In this document: piece by piece, positions 2,221-31,435 of the stretch
Layout: every line of letters begins with the position of its first letter
Position numbering within the stretch: the stretch's first letter is position 1
IMG/VR virus record: IMGVR_UViG_3300025889_000378
Location: 1-36,609 of that record
Origin: a virus
Length of the DNA stretch: 36,609 bases
Direction: 5' to 3' (one strand)
The notes under the pieces: model-generated
Seen by the model: the letters and a program-made list of their open reading frames with translations, nothing else
Database searches by the model: none
What the model was told of the DNA's origin: nothing
Made by a program: the position numbers and the translations under genes

Positions 2221-4586
2221 CGATAACAATAAACCCATATACCGGATTACCGGACGTTATCGGCACCGGAGGAGTTGGCGCGGCTGGTGAGATCATGGTT
2301 GGTAGCGCCCCGCTTACGTCGACGGCATCGGTCGGGTCGGTTGTTTTCGAGGACGCCAACGGGGTTTCTTTCGGCTTAAACGGCCAGACATTAACGGCAA
2401 GCATCGGAGTTCTTGGGAGCGTAGCGGCCTCAGCTTCAAACGGGTCATTTACATTCAATACGCTGTCATTCGGCAATCAAGCCGGACTGTCTTTTTGGAC
2501 ATCTGGCGGGTCAATAGTTGGATCGCTTGGGCCGCTAGCGTTTTCAGGGTCGAACGGATCTTCAACCTTTTCAACTATTAGTTTTGGCAACTCTAACGGG
2601 GTGTCATTTTACGCTACAAATGGATCGCTAGTAGCGAGTCATAACGCATTAACAAGCCAGAGCAACCAAGCGTTAAGCGGCAGCAACGGAAGCTTTACGT
2701 TTCAAACTGCGACGTTTGGCAACACTCATGGGATTTCACATTTTACAAGTAATGGCTCTTTAGTAGCGAGCTATAACCCGCTTTCTATCTCGGCTGTCGG
2801 TGGCGGTGCATCGTCAGGCACGTTGTTTTTTTCTAATGCTAATGGCGCTTCGTTTGGAGTGATCGGCGGTACCGCAATGACTCTTTCGTATACGGTGCCA
2901 TCCGTTACAAATTCATCGTGGACGGTATCGGATGCAGCGGGAGCTTCTGGATCGGTTGCCCGGCTTCATTTTGCTAATGCTAATGGCGTTACATTATCGC
3001 TATCAACTGGCGGCGGTGGTAGCCATACGATTGTCGGATCGCACAATGCGCTTACGTCTCAAAGCGTTCAAGCCTTTTCCGCCTTTGGCGGCTCATCGAC
3101 ATTCCAAACGTTAATATTTGCCGATACTAACCAAGTTAGTTTCACAAACACCAACGGCTCAGTCGGAATTGCTTCCATCAAGCTTTCGATGTTCGCCGTC
3201 AGTAACACAACTCAAAGCTCAAACGGGACAGCTAACCACACGGCGCTATCTTTCGGCGGAGCTGGCATCGCTTCGGTTGGCGTTACTAACGGGTCGGTGG
3301 TGGTTTCTGCTTCGCAATCAAATCAAGCTTTCAGCGCGGCGGGAGGTTCTAGCGCGTTCCAGACTCTAAGCTTCGGCGATAATGTCGGTGTTTCATTCAC
3401 TAACTCAAACGGTTCGTTAGCAGTTGCTTCGGTCAAGCTCTCGCTTCATGCGGTATCGAATACTACTCAGTCAACTAGCGGTACAGCTAATCACTCTGCA
3501 ATCTCCTTTGGCGGCGCCGGAATTGCGAGCGTAGGAGTAACCGGCGGGTCAGTAGTAATATCGGTGCCAGCAGGAGCGCCAAGCCCTGTCAACTTTTCAG
3601 CCGGAGCAGCAAGCGCAGACCTTGGAAGCGTGGTTTTCTCTGATAGCAACGGCGTGTCATTTGGATTAAACGGGTCAACGATAACCGGGAGTCATAACGG
3701 ACTAACCTCACAATCGAATCAAGCATTCTCAGCAGCCGGAGGATCGTCGGCGTTTCAAACTCTCAACATCGCCGACACGAACGGTGTCAGCTTCACCAAC
3801 ACAAACGGGTCTCTTGGGGTCGCATCCGTTAAGCTCTCAATGTATGCGGTATCGAACACAACTCAAAGCAGTTCGGGAACGGCTAACCACACAGCGTTAA
3901 GCTTTGGCGGTGCCGGGATTGCGTCAGTGGCGGTGACGAATGGATCGGTAGTTTACGAAGTGCCGAAGTTCACGATCCGCGATTTTGAAAACATGCCAAA
4001 AGAAACTCTTAACCTAAATTCGAACATGATGAATGCAGCCGTTACTCAGCGGCCTATGTTCACTCCCGTTATAATTCCGGGGTATTTGACGCATAATGTT
4101 CTTCAGATCGAAGTGTCTCGCGCTACTTCCGGCAGTAATGCATTTACGGCACAAGCAGCGATTTATTCTTTTGTAAACTCTACTCAAATAGGGCTTATAG
4201 GGACGCTCCAAAATGTGTTTTCTAATACAGATACCGGCTCTATTTCAGGCATCCGGCGGTTGCAGATGACGGGGTGGGAAACAGCGGCAACGAACTTAAC
4301 TCCGGGGCATTATGTAATGATGCTGTACTTTTCAGCTACGGCAACGGCTTCAGCAAACTACTCGATTCGTGGAGCGCTCACAGCGAATCCGCCTGTCGGC
4401 GTTATCGGCGGTGGGACAGATGCGGTGACAACCGCAACAAGCGCGCTTGCTACAACGGTAGGTTTCGGCGCGTTTAAAGGTCGCTACACGACAACCACAG
4501 CTTCTCCGCCGTCTACGGTTGATTTTGCACATGTTCAAGGATGGACCACATGGGCGAATCCTTACATTTTTCTAGGACTAACGTAA
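2217..4586 (+). CDS. Repetitive tail-fibre-like protein (789 aa)
   Basis: The start overlaps the previous stop (ATGA). Roughly residues 30-580 are low-complexity, Ser/Gly/Asn-rich beta repeats built on variants of FxTxxFGNxNGVSFxxxNGS. Three longer tandem units of about 80 residues begin near bases 3070, 3320 and 3715. Each runs from QAFSAxGGSSxFQT to SFGGAGIASVxVTxGSV. A non-repetitive C-terminal domain of about 200 residues follows, starting near VPKFTIRDFENMP. This layout, a beta-repeat shaft plus a globular tip, is typical of host-recognition fibres. It has no catalytic motif and no signal peptide. It is followed, with TAATG coupling, by a glycosyltransferase gene that might act on it (inference). 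It could instead be a non-receptor head fibre. Confidence 0.75.
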   Translation: MTITINPYTGLPDVIGTGGVGAAGEIMVGSAPLTSTASVGSVVFEDANGVSFGLNGQTLTASIGVLGSVAASASNGSFTFNTLSFGNQAGLSFWTSGGSIVGSLGPLAFSGSNGSSTFSTISFGNSNGVSFYATNGSLVASHNALTSQSNQALSGSNGSFTFQTATFGNTHGISHFTSNGSLVASYNPLSISAVGGGASSGTLFFSNANGASFGVIGGTAMTLSYTVPSVTNSSWTVSDAAGASGSVARLHFANANGVTLSLSTGGGGSHTIVGSHNALTSQSVQAFSAFGGSSTFQTLIFADTNQVSFTNTNGSVGIASIKLSMFAVSNTTQSSNGTANHTALSFGGAGIASVGVTNGSVVVSASQSNQAFSAAGGSSAFQTLSFGDNVGVSFTNSNGSLAVASVKLSLHAVSNTTQSTSGTANHSAISFGGAGIASVGVTGGSVVISVPAGAPSPVNFSAGAASADLGSVVFSDSNGVSFGLNGSTITGSHNGLTSQSNQAFSAAGGSSAFQTLNIADTNGVSFTNTNGSLGVASVKLSMYAVSNTTQSSSGTANHTALSFGGAGIASVAVTNGSVVYEVPKFTIRDFENMPKETLNLNSNMMNAAVTQRPMFTPVIIPGYLTHNVLQIEVSRATSGSNAFTAQAAIYSFVNSTQIGLIGTLQNVFSNTDTGSISGIRRLQMTGWETAATNLTPGHYVMMLYFSATATASANYSIRGALTANPPVGVIGGGTDAVTTATSALATTVGFGAFKGRYTTTTASPPSTVDFAHVQGWTTWANPYIFLGLT

Positions 4587-5308
4587 TGAAACCTCAAATA
4601 ATAATCGAAGACCACAAAGGGCATCATAACGGGAGTGACTTTGCAAAGCGGCTTGAGAACGCCAAGCTCTACAAAGACTCCTCCACCATCTGCGTAGTGC
4701 CGACACGCGGGGAAATCCCGGCGAAGGTGGTTCAAAACTGGCTCGGCTTAATGACGCCGATGAATCAGAAGTTTACCCGCATTTTCATGATCGGCTTAGA
4801 AGTCGGGGAAGCGTACAGCCAGGTGGTTGACGCAATTCTAGCAGACAAAGAACTTTCAAAATGGAAGTACATGTTGACGCTGGAAGAGGACAACATGGTA
4901 CCGCCAGATGGTCTAATCAAGCTCATAGCTAACATCGGTGATTATGATGCTATCGGCGGCCTTTACTGGACCAAGGGAGAAGACGGCCAGCCGATGTGCT
5001 ACGGCCGGCCAGATGTGGCGCCGCTTAATTTCATTCCGCAAATCCCAGAGCCGGGAACGCTTACGCCGTGTAATGGCTTAGGTATGGGCTTCACGCTCTT
5101 TAAGATCGCAAGCCTTAAAAAGATGCAAGAGAAGTACGGATCGCCACTTTTCAAAACTGTACAGGTGTACGAGCCCGGCAAAGGTTCCCAGGCGTACACT
5201 CAAGACCTTTGGCATTTTCAGCGAGGCCGCGAAATGGGCCTTAAGTATGCGTGTGATTCGCGGGTGCTAGTTGGTCACTATGATTTTACTAACGATAGGG
5301 TGTGGTAA
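4586..5308 (+). CDS. Glycosyltransferase, GT-A-like fold (240 aa)
   Basis: I start it at the ATG whose A is the last base of the fibre-like gene's stop (TAATG), because the upstream in-frame codons have no ribosome site. The N-terminal half reads as a nucleotide-sugar-binding Rossmann-like fold (ICVVPTRGEIP; FMIGLEVGEAYSQVVD). An acidic motif LEEDNMVPP at residues 99-107 corresponds to the DxD-type metal site of GT-A enzymes. Next come IGGLYW and CNGLGMGFTLFK, and a late DLWHFQRGREMGLK segment like the C-terminal acidic/His region of family 2-like transferases. The expected reaction is sugar transfer from an NDP-sugar. The target is unknown: a virion protein (the fibre-like protein just upstream) or a host surface glycan. 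The gene is in the late operon, not in a separate conversion module. Confidence 0.78.
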   Translation: MKPQIIIEDHKGHHNGSDFAKRLENAKLYKDSSTICVVPTRGEIPAKVVQNWLGLMTPMNQKFTRIFMIGLEVGEAYSQVVDAILADKELSKWKYMLTLEEDNMVPPDGLIKLIANIGDYDAIGGLYWTKGEDGQPMCYGRPDVAPLNFIPQIPEPGTLTPCNGLGMGFTLFKIASLKKMQEKYGSPLFKTVQVYEPGKGSQAYTQDLWHFQRGREMGLKYACDSRVLVGHYDFTNDRVW

Positions 5309-5551: not shown

Positions 5552-6088
5552 ATGGCAAGGAAAAGCCAGAAAAAAGAGACGCTAGTTAAATTGGATTTAG
5601 CTTGTGGAGATAATAAGCGGGAAGGTTTTCAAGGGGTGGACGTTCATAAAACGCCAGCCGTGGATATTGTCGCCGATCTCTTCAAGCCGAAATGGCCTAT
5701 TAAAAGCAACTCGGTGGATGAAGTTCACTGCAGCCACTTCATAGAACACCACCCAGATTTGTGCCTGTTTTGGTCAGAGCTTTATCGCATCATGAAGCCA
5801 GGCGGCACAGCTACAATCATCGCGCCTTACGGCAAGAATAACCGCGCGTGGCAAGATCCGACACATTGCCGGGCGATAGTAGAGGAATCGTTTTTCTACC
5901 TGGATAAGAATTTTAGGAAGATGAACAAACTTGATCATTACCTAGCCGATGTCGATTTTGAGTTCACGGTGGTCTATGTCGGCATAGATCCGATGTGGCA
6001 GAATAGAAGCGAAGAGGCCCGGAATTTTGCGATAAAACACCATTGGAACGTAGTAGCAGATTTACAAGCAACGCTTAAGAAACGATGA
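5552..6088 (+). CDS. SAM-dependent methyltransferase, class I (178 aa)
   Basis: Motif I of class I methyltransferases is seen as LDLACGD (residues 14-20), followed by the acidic strand QGVDVHKTPAVDIVADL and the post-motif region SVDEVHCSHFIEHHPD. LYRIMKPGGTATIIAPYG is the classic LkPGG turn. This arrangement matches the Methyltransf_11/23 type small-molecule, sugar or protein methylases. It does not look like a DNA methylase, because there is no DPPY/NPPY motif. It sits two genes after a glycosyltransferase, so the pair may build and cap a sugar decoration (inference). AAGGATAGG lies upstream of the ATG. Its stop overlaps the next start (ATGA). Confidence 0.82.
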   Translation: MARKSQKKETLVKLDLACGDNKREGFQGVDVHKTPAVDIVADLFKPKWPIKSNSVDEVHCSHFIEHHPDLCLFWSELYRIMKPGGTATIIAPYGKNNRAWQDPTHCRAIVEESFFYLDKNFRKMNKLDHYLADVDFEFTVVYVGIDPMWQNRSEEARNFAIKHHWNVVADLQATLKKR

Positions 6089-24143: not shown

Positions 24144-24150
24144 TTAGCGG
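24132..24150. terminator. Weak convergent terminator between lysis and leftward genes
   Basis: CCGCT (24132-24136) and AGCGG (24146-24150) can form a short 5-bp stem around the two abutting stop codons of the convergent genes. Rightward it is followed by TGCTTCTTTA; no strong T run exists on either side. It is a plausible but weak bidirectional terminator. Confidence 0.3.
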
Positions 24151-24590
24151 TGCTTCTTTAGCGCTTTGATCTGCTTTTTTAGCTTTGCATTTTGCGCTAA
24201 TAAAGAGTTATAGCCACCAACTAGGCTATTATATTGCGCGTTCAGCGAGTTGTATTGTCCGTTAGCCGTCGCAACCGTGGCATCGCAATTGGTTTTTAGA
24301 GCGCTACATTCATTTGAAAGCAAAGTATAAGCGCTAGACAAGGCCGAATAATCAACAGAGCACGATTCCGCACTAGCCTTGTTTTCTGCATTTCTACTAA
24401 TGACGATAGCCATCGTGACGCCGTAAAACGGACTGATCGATGATTGGTTAGTTGTCGATAACCAAGACAGCCCCACAGTCGGCTCATAGCAAAAGCCTGG
24501 GTTGCTAAACGCTACATAACATCCGTTCGGCAGACTTTCTGCTTGAACAATTGCCGGGATAAAAAGAAGTGCCAAAAGTAATTTTTTCAT
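24144..24590 (-). CDS. Secreted heptad-repeat protein, lysogenic-conversion candidate (148 aa)
   Basis: I start it at MKKLLLALLFIPAIVQAE, a Sec signal peptide, because GGAGG (24600-24604 on the plus strand as CCTCC) lies 9 bases upstream. The mature part has four or more Cys (NGCYVAFSNPGFCYEP; LSNECSALKTNC) that could form disulfides. Three exact heptad units, YNSLNAQ, YNSLVGG and YNSLLAQ, then lead into a basic coiled-coil end (KLKKQIKALKKHR). It runs opposite to the late genes and has its own promoter overlapping a TTGTACAA-like site (24612-24619). That arrangement fits a gene expressed from the prophage, for example one altering the host envelope. No family is recognised. Confidence 0.72.
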   Translation of the reverse strand: MKKLLLALLFIPAIVQAESLPNGCYVAFSNPGFCYEPTVGLSWLSTTNQSSISPFYGVTMAIVISRNAENKASAESCSVDYSALSSAYTLLSNECSALKTNCDATVATANGQYNSLNAQYNSLVGGYNSLLAQNAKLKKQIKALKKHR

Positions 24591-24611: not shown

Positions 24612-24646
24612 TTGCACAACTATACTTATGAGCAGCCGCGGATCAA
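24612..24646 (-). promoter_or_regulatory. Leftward promoter with overlapping operator for the secreted protein gene
   Basis: On the minus strand: a -35 TTGATC (plus 24641-24646), a 16-base spacer, and a -10 TATAGT (plus 24619-24624; 5 of 6 consensus). The near-palindrome TTGCACAA (24612-24619) sits at the end of the -10 and over the likely start site. It is one base away from the TTGTACAA motif of the main control region, so the same repressor may bind here. Confidence 0.6.
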
Positions 24647-24649
24647 TGG

Positions 24650-24880
24650 TTACTTTCCGAACTCATCATCTATAAGCTTGCCGAACTGATTCCAGCTCAA
24701 GCCGGATAACCTCCTTAAACCACTAAGGATATCCAAGCGCATCGACCGCGCCGTTTCTCGCTCATAGGCGTCAATGCCTTGGGTTGTAACCTCTACACCG
24801 TCGTTTCGAAGCCGCTTAGAGATGCCATAATTGGTTAACTCAGCGGACTCTCTAACCTTTTCAATCAATTTCATGCTCAT
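24650..24880 (-). CDS. Small HTH protein, candidate immunity repressor (76 aa)
   Basis: This leftward gene ends 59 bases before the next leftward start. The region LTNYGISKRLRNDGVEVTTQ followed by GIDAYERETARSM fits a compact helix-turn-helix of XRE/Cro type, in which YGISKRL and TTQGIDAYE form the turn and recognition helix. No C-terminal peptidase domain is present. If it is the repressor it would be of the small P2-C-like type and not self-cleaved after DNA damage. There is no Shine-Dalgarno; the -10 of its promoter ends 8 bases before the ATG, so the mRNA is probably leaderless. It is flanked by the TTGTACAA sites, the best evidence for its role. Cro-like or activator functions are alternatives. 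Confidence 0.68.
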   Translation of the reverse strand: MSMKLIEKVRESAELTNYGISKRLRNDGVEVTTQGIDAYERETARSMRLDILSGLRRLSGLSWNQFGKLIDDEFGK

Positions 24881-24887
24881 AACTTAT

Positions 24888-24915
24888 ATTGTACAACTAT
24901 TTCGTGTTACTGCAA
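24888..24915 (-). promoter_or_regulatory. Leftward promoter for the HTH gene
   Basis: On the minus strand: -35 TTGCAG (plus 24910-24915), a 16-base spacer, and -10 TACAAT (plus 24888-24893; 5 of 6 consensus). The -10 lies within operator TTGTACAA at 24889-24896. The predicted start site is at or next to the ATG at 24880, so the transcript would lack a leader. Autoregulation is implied. Confidence 0.6.
24889..24896. promoter_or_regulatory. Operator copy: TTGTACAA
   Basis: Perfect 8-bp palindrome that overlaps the -10 of the HTH gene promoter. It is the leftmost of four copies between the divergent genes. Confidence 0.65.
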
Positions 24916-24935
24916 ATATATTTGTACAAATATAT
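24916..24935. promoter_or_regulatory. Operator copy: extended 20-bp palindrome centred on TTGTACAA
   Basis: The TTGTACAA core (24922-24929) is extended by six more paired bases on each side to a perfect 20-bp palindrome. It is the strongest copy, lying between the leftward and rightward promoter elements, where a dimer could block both. Confidence 0.7.
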
Positions 24936-24936
24936 C

Positions 24937-24965
24937 TTGTCCGAGCATCAATATTGTTGTACAGT
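24937..24965 (+). promoter_or_regulatory. Rightward early promoter
   Basis: -35 TTGTCC (24937-24942), a 17-base spacer, and -10 TACAGT (24960-24965) drive the rightward early genes starting at 25006. The match to consensus is moderate (4 of 6 each). The operator copy at 24957-24964 overlaps the -10, as expected for repression in the lysogen. Confidence 0.5.
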
Positions 24966-24978
24966 AATTCTTGTACAT
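24957..24978. promoter_or_regulatory. Two operator copies: TTGTACAG and TTGTACAT
   Basis: The copies are at 24957-24964 and 24971-24978, with centres 14 bp apart and one mismatch each to TTGTACAA. They cover the rightward -10 and probable start region. The spacing from the central copy (35 bp) and from this copy to the next (14 bp) would allow cooperative binding. Confidence 0.6.
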
Positions 24979-25005
24979 GACGATATGAATACTGGAGCGA
25001 ATGAG

Positions 25006-25242
25006 ATGACACGAGACGAAGCAACAAAAATAGCAGCCGAACTAGCAGAGCAAACCGGAGTATACCATTGCGCGGTTAGAGATAACGGCGATTGGTTTTA
25101 CCCGTCAGGCTGGCATGTTGAGAACGTCAAGGGCGAAGAGATTGACGTTTGCAAATGCGATAGATGCGGGACGGTTGAAGAGCGGGAAGTTATGGGCAGT
25201 GTTGGGTCGCTTAAGTATTGTCAAATTTGTTTAGAAGACTAG
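25006..25242 (+). CDS. Small zinc-ribbon-like early protein (78 aa)
   Basis: I start at MTRDEATK because GGAG (24993-24996) lies 9 bases upstream; an earlier in-frame ATG has no ribosome site. The first half is a small alpha/beta fold (HCAVRDNGDWFYPSGWHV). The second has CKCDRCG and CQIC, a Cys4 arrangement for one zinc ion. As the first gene of the rightward early operon it may be a Cro-like, anti-repressor or transcription factor, but the sequence gives no DNA-binding helix. The function is unknown. Confidence 0.68.
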   Translation: MTRDEATKIAAELAEQTGVYHCAVRDNGDWFYPSGWHVENVKGEEIDVCKCDRCGTVEEREVMGSVGSLKYCQICLED

Positions 25243-25250
25243 AGGGAGCT

Positions 25251-25976
25251 ATGGACGAGCAAACAACAGAAACAATCACCACATGGGCAGCGCGGTCGGC
25301 GACGATCTCAAAGATCGCGGCGGCATTGAGCAAGGCACAGGCAGAGATAGAAGGGGCTAAAAAGGGGTCAGTTAACCCGCATTTCCGCTCGAAATATGCC
25401 GATCTGGGCGCGGTGTGGGACGCGATTAGAGGGCCGTTCACAAAGAACGAATTAAGTGTACTTCAGGAGCCGAGTGCAGCGAATGGCAAGGTAATTGTCA
25501 CCACTACGGTACTACATTCATCAGGCGAATATTTCCGGTCATCGCTTGAAATCCCGGTTAGCAAACAGGACGCGCAAGGCTACGGGTCGGGGATTACCTA
25601 CGGGCGGCGCTACGGACTCCAATCGGTCGCCGGTATAGCTCCAGAGGACGACGACGGCAACGCAGCGAGTCAAGGGGCGCCAACTCCTGCAGCCCTTGTT
25701 AACAAAGTGGCGGAACATGAAAAAAAGGTTCGTGAGGCAATGGCGCAGCGGCAAACGGTTACAAATGGCAACGGCGAGCCTGTCATGCCGTTCGGCAAGT
25801 ACGCTGGCAAGCCGATGAAGGACGTTCCAGCCGACTATTTGCAATGGATTTTAGATAACAAGCCAGCACATAAAGCGCTTGCAGAAACCGAGCTTATGCG
25901 GCGTGAGGCCGAGGTGATGCAATCGACAGAAGCCGATGAAGACGACTTACCGGCGGAGTGGAACACGAACGTATGA
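25251..25976 (+). CDS. erf: ERF-family single-strand annealing protein with C-terminal DUF3820-like domain (241 aa)
   Basis: I start at the ATG after AGGGAG, 6 bases away. Residues 1-140 show the ERF core: ISKIAAALSKAQAEIEGAKK, NPHFRSKYADLGAVWDAIRG, LSVLQEPSAANGKVIVTTTV, and YGSGITYGRRYGLQSVAGI. It anneals complementary single strands for recombination or circularisation. The C-terminal third holds MPFGKYAGKPMKDVPADYLQWILDN, the DUF3820-type (exonuclease-associated) motif, in place of the usual disordered tail. It is at the head of the early operon, as in many temperate phages. No phage-type exonuclease is clearly seen next to it. Confidence 0.85.
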   Translation: MDEQTTETITTWAARSATISKIAAALSKAQAEIEGAKKGSVNPHFRSKYADLGAVWDAIRGPFTKNELSVLQEPSAANGKVIVTTTVLHSSGEYFRSSLEIPVSKQDAQGYGSGITYGRRYGLQSVAGIAPEDDDGNAASQGAPTPAALVNKVAEHEKKVREAMAQRQTVTNGNGEPVMPFGKYAGKPMKDVPADYLQWILDNKPAHKALAETELMRREAEVMQSTEADEDDLPAEWNTNV

Positions 25977-26638: not shown

Positions 26639-27703
26639 ATGTATTTTATAGTTGGGATTAGCAGTTTTCCGGGGAATCCGTACAAAGATTATAGAGAGGG
26701 GCTTGACAAAAAATATGGTATTGACGCTGGTCAAACTGAGACGCCAAGCATGCATATCAAGCAAGCTTTACGCCTTTGGCTTTTCAACAAAGCCGGGAAT
26801 ACAAAAAGTACGTATGGCCAGATTGTCGCCGATTGGCTCTCTCATGTCCCGCATGACCGAATGTTGGAGCCTACTACAAGAGACGTTTACGAATATCTTG
26901 TGTATCTGGAGCGGAAGAAAGGCACAAAGACGCGAAACGATTTGGAAGGTAATTTTTGGCCCTCAACGATTCGGAAGTACATCACTTGTTTACGCTCTTT
27001 TTATAACTTTCTAGTGACTACAAACGCGGCGGAAAGTAACCCATTTTTAGATCCATCATTCGACCTTGGCATGTTCAAAGTTAGCCAGAAAAGACCAACG
27101 GAATTTATAGAGTTTGACGCCGTGGAGCGCATCCTTGCCGCGTACTCAGAGCGTGACGGCAAAACCGGGATCAGAAACCGGGCGATTATGGCCGTGCTTT
27201 TCGGTACGGGCCTCAGAAAGTCGGAAGTTAGAAACCTACTCCTTGGTGACGTTCGCAAAACGCCAGCGGGGACATGGTATGTACATCTCAGACACACCAA
27301 GTCTAAACGCGATAGAAGCCCGGCATTAGGCGATTGGGCCTTAGGGCCTATGCTCACCTATCGCCAACAACGAATCGACGAAGGGGCGAAGGATTCAAGC
27401 CCTTTATTCGTGGGCTATGAGCAGTCAACGGAGCGCCCGGCACAAGTTCCGATGGCGCCGAAAACGCTCTACCTGATTTTCAAATACGCAGCGGCTAGGG
27501 CTGGAGTATCTAGCGCCGCAACTTTTCATAGTGGCCGGGCAACGGTTGTTTCGAAGCTGTTAAACGATGGCGCGGAGTATCGAGAGGTCCAGGAAGTGAC
27601 GGGCCATTCATCGGTACAGATGGTTGAGAGCTACGACAAACGACAATACGGGCCGGATAAGTCGGCGACTAAAAAATTGGGGTGGGGCGATGGATCGATT
27701 TAA
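26639..27703 (+). CDS. int: Tyrosine-type integrase (354 aa)
   Basis: The C-terminal catalytic domain holds the expected residues: Arg193 in GTGLRKSEV, a Lys in HTKSKRDRSP, His297 and Arg300 in TFHSGRATVV, His323 in VTGHSSVQM and the nucleophile Tyr332 in SYDKRQYG. The N-terminal part has a core-binding domain (RKYITCLRSFYNFLVTTNAAE). It cuts and rejoins attP and attB for integration and excision. The ATG at 26639 has no clear ribosome site and touches the terminator; an ATG at 26750 would give 317 residues starting at the core-binding domain. An attP candidate lies 0.6 kb downstream, past the YopX-like gene. Confidence 0.92.
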   Translation: MYFIVGISSFPGNPYKDYREGLDKKYGIDAGQTETPSMHIKQALRLWLFNKAGNTKSTYGQIVADWLSHVPHDRMLEPTTRDVYEYLVYLERKKGTKTRNDLEGNFWPSTIRKYITCLRSFYNFLVTTNAAESNPFLDPSFDLGMFKVSQKRPTEFIEFDAVERILAAYSERDGKTGIRNRAIMAVLFGTGLRKSEVRNLLLGDVRKTPAGTWYVHLRHTKSKRDRSPALGDWALGPMLTYRQQRIDEGAKDSSPLFVGYEQSTERPAQVPMAPKTLYLIFKYAAARAGVSSAATFHSGRATVVSKLLNDGAEYREVQEVTGHSSVQMVESYDKRQYGPDKSATKKLGWGDGSI

Positions 27704-28450: not shown

Positions 28451-28867
28451 GTGTCAACACCACGTAAAAGATACTCCAAAATCAAACCAAACGCTACGCC
28501 TGAAGAACGAGAGGCCATTAGAAAAATGCGCCAGCGTGATGCCGTTCGCAAATATTACGCCGAGAACCGGGAAGACCTACGAGCGAAAAAAAAGGCATGG
28601 AAAACGGAGCTAGGGGCAGAATTTAAGAGAAGGCAATTAGAATACTCGAAGCGCTCTATGGCCCGATACCCGAAACGGGAGCGAGCGCGGCAATTAACGG
28701 CAAATGCCATCGCTTGTGGCAAGTTGAAACGCAAACCATGCGTTGTTTGCAATAGCTCCCCAAGCGACGTGCATCACTTAGATTACGGCAATTGGGCTGA
28801 AGTTATGTGGCTTTGCCGCAAACACCATCTCGCATGGCATAGGCTTTTCATTCCGGAGGGCCTATGA
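28451..28867 (+). CDS. HNH-type zinc-binding endonuclease-like protein (138 aa)
   Basis: The GTG start is 7 bases after AGCAAG; a strong ribosome site is lacking. The N-terminal half is basic and helical (KNRREDLRAKKKAW-like). The end holds KPCVVCNSSPSDVHHLDY and VMWLCRKHHLAWHRL: paired Cys, a DVHHLDY core and the final Cys/His pair of the HNH fold. It is probably a small nicking or cutting endonuclease, or a DNA-binding relative of one. It is ATGA-coupled to the replication gene. Confidence 0.78.
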   Translation: MSTPRKRYSKIKPNATPEEREAIRKMRQRDAVRKYYAENREDLRAKKKAWKTELGAEFKRRQLEYSKRSMARYPKRERARQLTANAIACGKLKRKPCVVCNSSPSDVHHLDYGNWAEVMWLCRKHHLAWHRLFIPEGL

Positions 28868-29694
28868 GTCGCGTACAACTAAAACATCTTCTTTTGGATG
28901 TCGATTTTTTCGATAAGCCGAAAGTACGAGCCTTAGCATACAAGCACACTCAGCTTGCCGTTCTTTTATACATCCGCTGGCAGCTTCTTATGTCGCGTGC
29001 GACTGACGCGTTAGTAACGCGTGACTCACTCGCATCGGTTGCACATGAGGTGCTTGATGGCCTTGGGACCGCAGTAGCAACATTCGAATCGGTTTTGGAT
29101 TACTGCCTTAAAACAGGGATGATTGTTCAGGTTGGCCCGGATTCTTTCAGTAGTGAACGAGTAATTAAAGACCAGGAAACATGCGCTATTAAGCGGGCTG
29201 AAGGAGCTGAAAGACAAAAAAAATATCGAGCGAAAAAAGAGGATGTTAGTAACGCGTTACTAACGCGTTTACCTGTAACTGTAACTGATATTGTATCTGA
29301 AGATCTAAAGAAAGGATCGTCTCTCGAAATCCCAGAATCGTTTGACTACCCGGATGTTCGCCAAGCGTTAGCGATGTGGACATCAAACCTTCGCAAGCAC
29401 AAACGTAACATCGACCAGATCCAGATTGAGGCGCTTTGCGCTAGGTTCGGGACACCTAAAAAGCTTGTCGATGCGATTCGGTACTCTTGTTCACTTTCTA
29501 AGTGCTTGAACGTAATAGACCCCCCTGAAAAATCACAAACGCAATCGAGAGCAGGGCCAGGCGGCCAGATTGTTGGGAGCATCGCCGCGAGCGATAGCAG
29601 ACATCCGGCGTTGGTTGCTCAACGGCAACGGGACGCGCAGGAAAAGCGGGAAATGTTAGCAGCCGGGAATATTTTAAGAGGGGTTCTTAAATGA
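28864..29694 (+). CDS. Replication-initiator-like protein (276 aa)
   Basis: The ATG overlaps the HNH stop (ATGA). The first 110 residues read as a winged helix (FDKPKVRALAYKHTQLAVLL; LDYCLKTGMIVQVGPDSFSS) as in phage initiator/primosome proteins such as the O-like and DnaD-like groups, followed by a basic linker with RQKKYRAKK. The second half is helical (QIQIEALCARFGTPKKLVDA). There is no visible helicase or polymerase motif, so it would bind the origin and recruit the host helicase. Two 17-bp iteron-like repeats lie inside the gene (29006 and 29252), as expected for an origin in an initiator gene. The family match is by style. Confidence 0.68.
   Translation: MSRVQLKHLLLDVDFFDKPKVRALAYKHTQLAVLLYIRWQLLMSRATDALVTRDSLASVAHEVLDGLGTAVATFESVLDYCLKTGMIVQVGPDSFSSERVIKDQETCAIKRAEGAERQKKYRAKKEDVSNALLTRLPVTVTDIVSEDLKKGSSLEIPESFDYPDVRQALAMWTSNLRKHKRNIDQIQIEALCARFGTPKKLVDAIRYSCSLSKCLNVIDPPEKSQTQSRAGPGGQIVGSIAASDSRHPALVAQRQRDAQEKREMLAAGNILRGVLK
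29006..29022. repeat. Iteron-like 17-bp repeat, copy 1
   Basis: ACGCGTTAGTAACGCGT: two ACGCGT units 11 bp apart form an odd palindrome (8-bp arms, one central base). It is coding for DALVTR. It is the reverse complement of copy 2 at 29252-29268, so the same 17-mer is present on both strands about 246 bp apart. Confidence 0.72.
29245..29269. repeat. Iteron-like repeat, copy 2 within a 20-bp palindrome
   Basis: Bases 29252-29268 are ACGCGTTACTAACGCGT, the reverse complement of copy 1. Bases 29245-29264 form a perfect 20-bp palindrome, and 29251-29269 a 19-base odd palindrome, so overlapping symmetric sites exist here. This is a candidate initiator-binding site in the middle of the gene. Confidence 0.72.
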
Positions 29695-29873: not shown

Positions 29874-30169
29874 GCAACCAACTAGACATTTTCAGCTACC
29901 CCAATTCGCCTGGATTTAAAAAAGCCGGGACAAGCAAAGACGCTGCAAAGAAAGCAAAGCCGAATCAGCGTGATTCGTGGCGCAAGATCTTGGAGGTTTT
30001 AAGGCGCTACCAATTCACCAGCGATGAAGTTGCCCACGCCTTGCAACGTTCAATTTTGTACATCCGTCCGCGAATCTCGGAGCTAGTAGCTAAAGGCTTA
30101 GTAGTCGATTCGGGAACGCGGCGCACTAATGACAGCGGCCAATTCGCTACCGTTTGGAGGGCAGCATGA
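29870..30169 (+). CDS. Winged-helix early protein (99 aa)
   Basis: The gene is coupled by ATGA at both ends. The C-terminal 60 residues form a winged helix: SWRKILEVLRRYQFTSDEVA, LQRSILYIRPRISELVAKGL and a wing VVDSGTRRTNDSGQFATVWR. Such 'MarR-like without ligand' proteins occur in phage early regions. It could bind DNA as a regulator or help replication; the target is unknown. Confidence 0.75.
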   Translation: MSNQLDIFSYPNSPGFKKAGTSKDAAKKAKPNQRDSWRKILEVLRRYQFTSDEVAHALQRSILYIRPRISELVAKGLVVDSGTRRTNDSGQFATVWRAA

Positions 30170-31153: not shown

Positions 31154-31435
31154 ATGGAGGAGCTAAGGGCATCGTTACGGCGTCGAATGCAAGCTGATCG
31201 CATGAGCTATCGCGATGTGGAACAACTGACAGGAATTTCCGCTTCCACACTTTGCAGATTCGACAATGGCAAGCTGCTTACCTTCAAGAATTTTGACAAG
31301 CTCAACGATTGGTTCAACGGGAAGATATCGATCAAGTCTAATCCGATTAGCGTCAAGCGTTTCAGAGTTGGTCGCAAAACATTCCTTGTAACGATTGAGG
31401 AGATTACCACCAAACCGGAGCCGACAAATGAGTGA
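31154..31435 (+). CDS. XRE-type HTH DNA-binding protein (93 aa)
   Basis: GAGAGAG precedes the ATG. Residues 1-52 are a clear HTH of Cro/XRE type: MQADRMSYRDVEQLTGISAS then TLCRFDNGKLLTFKNFDKL, with SYRDVEQLTGIS and STLCRF as the two helices. The remaining 40 residues are a beta-rich tail. It is a probable regulator of the mid-early region or of the repressor switch. Its gene is in the same operon as the later early genes, not at the control region. Confidence 0.75.
   Translation: MEELRASLRRRMQADRMSYRDVEQLTGISASTLCRFDNGKLLTFKNFDKLNDWFNGKISIKSNPISVKRFRVGRKTFLVTIEEITTKPEPTNE

Follow-up and report, generated by a model that had tools for sequence, protein, structure and literature searches.

The closest described systems are the immunity switches of phages lambda and 434, in which a repressor gene diverges from the early operon and several operators lie over the two promoters between them. 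The 434 operator consensus is a 14-bp unit of the type ACAA-N6-TTGT, and Xre-type dimers, such as the 434 and lambda repressors, usually contact half-sites about one helical turn apart; in addition, lambda CI activates PRM. The lambda cI mRNA is leaderless (PMC4965119), and the hex gene of 434 is carried as cargo on the PRM mRNA (PMC3564112). The PaaR2 system of CP-933P is leaderless too, has the toxin-antitoxin pair paaA2-parE2 as cargo, and represses an additional promoter, PL933P (PMC8630535).

In this study, we have analyzed the virus contig IMGVR_UViG_3300025889_000378 over all of its 36,609 bp (the window). We postulate that it carries the immunity region of a temperate phage, similar to the lambda and 434 right operators, in which one small repressor acts on 14-bp dyads, one of them at the promoter of a cargo gene; we assign this reading a probability of about 0.72. 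What is predicted here, with good support, is a further example of the classic lambda/434-type switch that uses a new repressor family, and not a new kind of system.

The ends of the contig (1-186 and 36424-36609) share a 186-bp overlap with 96% identity, and their junction is bridged by contig L002; therefore, the window is essentially a close-to-complete genome in a circularly closed assembly, though IMG/VR classes it as linear. It encodes TerL, a portal protein, an Erf-type annealing protein, and, as expected of a temperate phage, a tyrosine integrase (PF00589 match, 26639-27703). With short unsupported ORFs set aside, only two leftward genes have support, the 76-aa HTH gene and the cargo gene. 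By eye, two ORFs among the structural genes resemble a glycosyltransferase-type protein (4541-5308) and a SAM-dependent methyltransferase (5552-6088). The genes and predicted promoters of the proposed switch are as follows.

24144-24590, minus strand: cargo gene (ORF from the ATG at 24590) for a 148-aa protein with a signal-peptide-like N terminus and a long C-terminal helix
24619-24646, minus strand: predicted cargo promoter, TTGATC-16-TATAGT (promoter scan)
24650-24880, minus strand: candidate repressor gene, 76 aa, predicted Xre/Cro-CI-type HTH protein (ORF, relatives, fold model)
24888-24916, minus strand: predicted repressor promoter, PRM-like, TTTGCA-17-TACAAT or TTGCAG-16 (promoter scan, position kept in relatives)
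24937-24965, plus strand: predicted early promoter, PR-like, TTGTCC-17-TACAGT (sequence match)
25006-25242, plus strand: first gene of the early operon, 78 aa, no HTH family match (ORF list, family search)
25251-25976, plus strand: Erf-type single-strand annealing protein, early operon (PF04404 and PHROG matches)
26639-27703, plus strand: tyrosine integrase, early operon (PF00589, E = 2.5e-26)
31154-31435, rightward early operon: HTH_26 protein, 93 aa (Pfam HTH_26, 25.6 bits against a cut-off of 22)

Comparison with described switches

The locus resembles those of lambda and 434 in its divergent repressor and early promoters, which have three conserved operator positions between them, in its 14-bp ACAA-N6-TTGT-like unit (434), in a probably leaderless repressor mRNA (lambda), and in having cargo on the repressor side, as with 434 hex and rexAB. 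It differs in that the window repressor has 76 aa and one domain, the HTH domain, with no cleavable C-terminal domain; the centers of the window units are 33 and 49 bp apart; the cargo has its own predicted promoter and a lone operator; and no recognizable Cro gene starts the early operon. No HTH family was recognized in the first protein of the early operon, either in the window or in three relatives, an undetectable HTH being possible; lacking a recognizable Cro at that place, the locus would work like a lambda-type CI/Cro pair but is not classed as one.

The PaaR2 immunity region of the cryptic prophage CP-933P shares with the window a small intergenic region with several palindromes, a repressor gene that is leaderless (probably so in the window), cargo behind the repressor, and a further promoter, PL933P there, with the same operators (PMC8630535). 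Unlike the proposed window regulator, PaaR2 acts with YdaS (Cro-like) and YdaT (CII-like), no counterpart of which was recognized beside the window array, and the CP-933P repeats are 18-bp palindromes of the GTTTAGTAA type. The controller protein C.Esp1396I is similar in size and fold (Z 7.8), and C-proteins likewise rely on one small protein and adjacent dyads at their own and a neighboring promoter; however, there are no restriction-modification genes in the window, and the array separates divergent phage genes. The N-terminal domain of AcrIIA1 has a similar fold (Z 7.6), a likeness common to many Xre proteins, but the window protein has no C-terminal inhibitor domain, and its gene, unlike those of AcrIIA1-type autorepressors, faces an early operon and lies outside any acr operon. 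Since repressor operons with cargo or an extra repressed promoter were already known (434 hex and PaaR2), the preliminary description overstated the case in calling the system unusually compact.

Predicted operator sites and their conserved placement

Four copies of TTGTACA(A/G/T) lie between the HTH gene and the early genes, namely TTGTACAA at 24889-24896 and 24922-24929, TTGTACAG at 24957-24964, and TTGTACAT at 24971-24978; a related core, TTGCACAA, lies at 24612-24619 on the cargo promoter side. TTGTACA-type cores number 4 in 24881-25005, compared with 0.07 expected and with 2 at most in any of 20,000 dinucleotide shuffles, whereas the 8-mer with one mismatch allowed was not enriched over the whole window (16 matches versus 11.8 expected); the significance is in the clustering of the cores and not in their genome-wide number. 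A further exact TTGTACAT at 30056, inside an ORF, was set aside.

The repeat is described better by a 14-bp dyad of the 434 type, RCA-N8-TGY (consensus about ACAA-N6-TTGT), and on the simplest reading TTGTACA (TTGT/ACA) marks where two such units abut. The ACAA...TTGT ends of the 434 class are found in the window dyads GCAAATATATTTGT and ACAGTAATTCTTGT. The units are listed below, with ranks among about 36,600 window positions from a 14-bp matrix built from relatives only; the unit itself was chosen with the window in view, and the cargo site had no part in that choice.

24616-24629, no strand: operator unit at the cargo promoter, ACAACTATACTTAT, with core TTGCACAA at 24612-24619; rank 3
24879-24892, no strand: operator unit O1, ATAACTTATATTGT, which extends from the start codon of the repressor gene to the -10 of its promoter, with core TTGTACAA at 24889-24896; rank 6
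24912-24925, no strand: operator unit O2, GCAAATATATTTGT, which overlaps the repressor promoter -35 and adjoins the core at 24922-24929; rank 1
24916-24935, no strand: perfect 20-bp palindrome ATATATTTGTACAAATATAT around the O2 core (palindrome scan), one of only two perfect palindromes of at least 14 bp in the window
24947-24960, no strand: possible weak unit abutting O3, ATCAATATTGTTGT; rank 24
24961-24974, no strand: operator unit O3, ACAGTAATTCTTGT, between the cores at 24957 and 24971, over the early promoter -10 and start; rank 2

The sites, their enrichment, their placement, and this out-of-sample ranking are all read from the sequence. The unit at 24616 stayed at ranks 1 to 4 when training subsets were dropped and reached the top three with only 1 of 200 column-permuted matrices; furthermore, in leave-one-lineage-out scans, the best match of each relative fell in its control region. 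Clusters of matrix matches in L063 and L064 were scattered through AT-rich sequence and were rejected.

Relatives were found by TerL-based and then HTH-based searches of viral contigs. Proteins related to the 76-aa protein, at 51 to 61% identity (L095, 61%; L096 and L097, about 60%; L100-L104, 53%; L098 and L099, 51%), are encoded on ten metagenomic phage contigs from four further lineages. In all five lineages, the window included, the operator array separates the HTH gene from the divergent early genes, and several operators lie over both predicted promoters at matching positions: O1 falls on the predicted -10 of the HTH gene, O2 follows at 33 to 34 bp, and the early promoter carries O3. This comparison supports the earlier proposal that the array is tied to the HTH gene in a lambda/434-like layout; moreover, all five of the sites originally claimed are present in the window, the second core lies within the 20-bp palindrome, and the three predicted promoters exist as sequence matches with TACAAT, TACAGT, and TATAGT as their -10 hexamers. 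Seven HTH-bearing relatives carry an integrase; none was seen in G011 (36 kb) or in the fragments G005 and G014, and the relatives with no integrase had no serine recombinase above the cut-off. Two candidate schemes were rejected: a distant TTGTACAA in L096 and L097 as a second cargo operator, because it lies inside an ORF, and a stoperator-like arrangement in G015-G019, where dispersed TTGTACA copies were not clearly above chance.

By number, the promoter matches are not above chance (4 found versus 2.7 expected), and their support comes from conserved position in the relatives. The distance from the -10 of the HTH promoter to the ATG is constant (region position 32-34 in the window, L096, L098, L100, and L103), and the early promoter, as TTGnnn-17-TAnnnT, recurs at region position 99-100 in the same relatives; L095 has weaker matches at both places. 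The window early promoter is an 8/12 match, below the scanner cut-off. The predicted start of the repressor transcript is at about 24881, next to the ATG; the constant -10 to ATG distance suggests that transcription starts at or adjoining the ATG, and the repressor mRNA is probably leaderless. For the early and cargo promoters, the predicted starts are at about 24972 and 24612.

From this arrangement we infer how binding, dimerization, promoter activity, the direction of regulation, and lysogeny may be connected. The 76-aa Xre/Cro-CI-type protein would bind the 14-bp dyads as a dimer. Occupation of O3 would cover the -10 and start of the early promoter and turn off the recombination and integrase operon, and O1, placed over the start of the probably leaderless repressor mRNA, would limit the level of the repressor itself. 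It can be envisaged that O2, at the -35 of the repressor promoter and between both promoters, couples the two; its center precedes the predicted repressor start by about 38 bp, near the place where lambda CI acts on PRM, and activation of the repressor promoter is therefore possible. The further unit over the separate promoter of the leftward exported-protein gene would make cargo expression follow the repressor level.

The predicted exported-protein gene and its candidate operator

The cargo gene lies 60 bp beyond the HTH gene, and its predicted -10 falls within that gap. The unit at 24616-24629 covers the -10 of TTGATC-16-TATAGT, and the best match in the genome to the 23-bp O1/repressor leader is the 23 bp at 24612, which is the cargo site (17/23). 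The suggestion that a related site lies at the cargo promoter thus gains from a matrix built on relatives alone, and the third rank of the unit, together with its position over the predicted promoter, supports the idea of cargo control.

The alternative that survives best, though we consider it unlikely, accepts the array as real and bound by the repressor but takes the cargo site as fortuitous, with the cargo cotranscribed from the PRM-like promoter as are rex and hex. The hex gene is a precedent (PMC3564112), and L095 has an exported-type protein, different from that of the window, whose gene overlaps the repressor gene at ATGA and is translationally coupled to it, an arrangement that leaves no gap for a promoter and suggests coexpression of such genes with the repressor. 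Taken alone, TTGCACAA is within the chance range for one-mismatch sites; however, the same variant is the natural O2 core in L100-L104, and the unit at 24616 not only is third genome-wide under a matrix trained without the window but also falls on a predicted -10 in the 60-bp gap. In other lineages the repressor is followed by terminase genes (L097) or by a convergent RHH gene (L098 and L099); therefore, the cargo is not a constant part of the module.

No relatives of the 148-aa cargo protein were found, and its low-confidence model has a helix at residues 81-147, the rest of the structure being poor. From its position and signal peptide, a role in lysogenic conversion or superinfection exclusion may be guessed at. 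Ltp of Streptococcus thermophilus phages is an exported lysogeny-module protein that acts in superinfection exclusion (PMC3952083). If the proposed control by the repressor is correct, the cargo site would provide a means of studying a predicted exported phage protein that possibly takes part in such exclusion.

The operator unit and its candidate binder

In the preliminary description the operator was the 8-bp palindrome TTGTACAA itself, a reading that we now regard as improbable, a little more so than cotranscription of the cargo. Among palindromes of the control regions, TGTACA shows the strongest enrichment (12 versus 0.76 expected), and an 8-mer matrix from the relatives also puts the window cluster at the top, with 24612 seventh; CAA-N6-TTG is enriched as well (6 versus 0.43), and the 14-bp matrix gives the cargo site a higher rank. 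When partner half-sites beside the cores were counted at gaps of 0 to 21, there was a sharp peak at gap 8, in 15 of 36 flanks compared with 3.9 expected, where 4 of the 15 counts stem from two core pairs with a 14-bp spacing and some of the partners at O2 fall on -35 boxes. No count as high was obtained in 3,000 shuffles, statistics that ignore relatedness among the lineages. A half-site spacing of about one helical turn is the usual one for Xre-type dimers.

The relatives L098 and L099 bear directly on the choice of unit. They retain the HTH gene, but in their array TTGTATA or CTATACAA replaces TTGTACA, and the 14-bp dyads survive as ACAACTATTTTTGT and ACAAAAATACTTGC. The predicted co-occurrence of HTH homologue and motif consequently holds for the array, which is present in all lineages, and fails for exact TTGTACA, so that the result named beforehand as refuting does occur for the 8-mer. 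A shift in operator specificity in L098 and L099 (recognition helix TTQGID to TIPGID, TTGTACA to TTGTATA) was considered and dropped, since the dyads keep ACA-N8-TGT. The literature searched gave no relevant account of TTGTACAA as a phage operator.

It is more doubtful still that the 76-aa protein is not the binder and that the sites serve another regulator, for example a host factor or the HTH_26 protein (31154-31435). The HTH_26 protein does pass the Pfam cut-off (25.6 versus 22 bits) and sits in the rightward early region, but it is not similar to the 76-aa protein, and HTH_26 or HTH_3 proteins occur in 1 of 11 relative records, whereas the 76-aa protein alone is common to all records with the array. 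Furthermore, the HTH-less TerL relative G010 has neither TTGTACAA nor a cluster. The HTH_26 protein could be a Cro-like regulator or an antirepressor, and its presence as a second, unrelated HTH protein means that regulation may not rest with the 76-aa protein alone. That the repeats are only promoter elements, with TTGTACAAT containing a -10 (TACAAT) and back-to-back promoters explaining the conservation, is hardly credible. Predicted -10 hexamers do coincide in part with O1 and with the copy at 24957, but O2 is not a -10, O3 of the relatives lies downstream of the predicted -10 and not on it, and a 20-bp palindrome and 14-bp dyads are not promoter features.

We therefore retain the 76-aa protein as the candidate repressor. 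Its AlphaFold model has five helices (pLDDT 88), and the best structural matches are all Xre-type regulators, namely ImmR (Z 8.1), SinR, C.Esp1396I, TP901-1 CI, and AcrIIA1, with 434 Cro lower. These matches are middling in Z, and the Foldseek E-values exceed 0.1; for this reason, we predict only the general Xre/Cro-CI-type fold. There was no significant match to the protein in Pfam, PHROG, or NCBIfam; one of six members of the family had a weak HTH_26 match (E 0.11), and the best PDB match in a profile search, AcrIIA1 5y69 (E 0.18), was not significant. Two scans of 84,980 bacterial and archaeal species genomes revealed no relative, and 50,697 phage records yielded one insignificant match only (E 0.3).

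These proteins would thus form a repressor family that current profile libraries miss and whose operator code is readable from comparison alone; the family can help to recognize temperate phages that are otherwise annotated with no repressor. In L100 and L103 (2876-3000, L100-L104), the repressor and array are almost exactly alike and the early genes differ directly after O3, as expected of a swappable cassette. More tentatively, and with the balance somewhat against it, previously unnamed single-domain repressors of about 76 residues may be the sole immunity regulator, with neither Cro nor a cleavable domain, in a swappable operator-array cassette that here also places a cargo promoter under the same 14-bp operator. 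If a single protein suffices, the natural switch so formed would be very small, and, with Cro and a cleavable domain both absent, the question arises of how induction works.

Other dyads were observed outside the arrays. The second perfect 20-bp palindrome of the window, GTTAGTAACGCGTTACTAAC at 29245-29264, lies within the ORF at 28864-29694, which is weakly DnaD/helicase-loader-like, and could be a replication or regulatory site. In L094, which belongs to the L098/L099 phage, the dyad TACACAA-CTA-TTGTGTA at about 2310-2336 stands before a further rightward gene, upstream of a CopG-like (RHH) gene, and may be a second operator.
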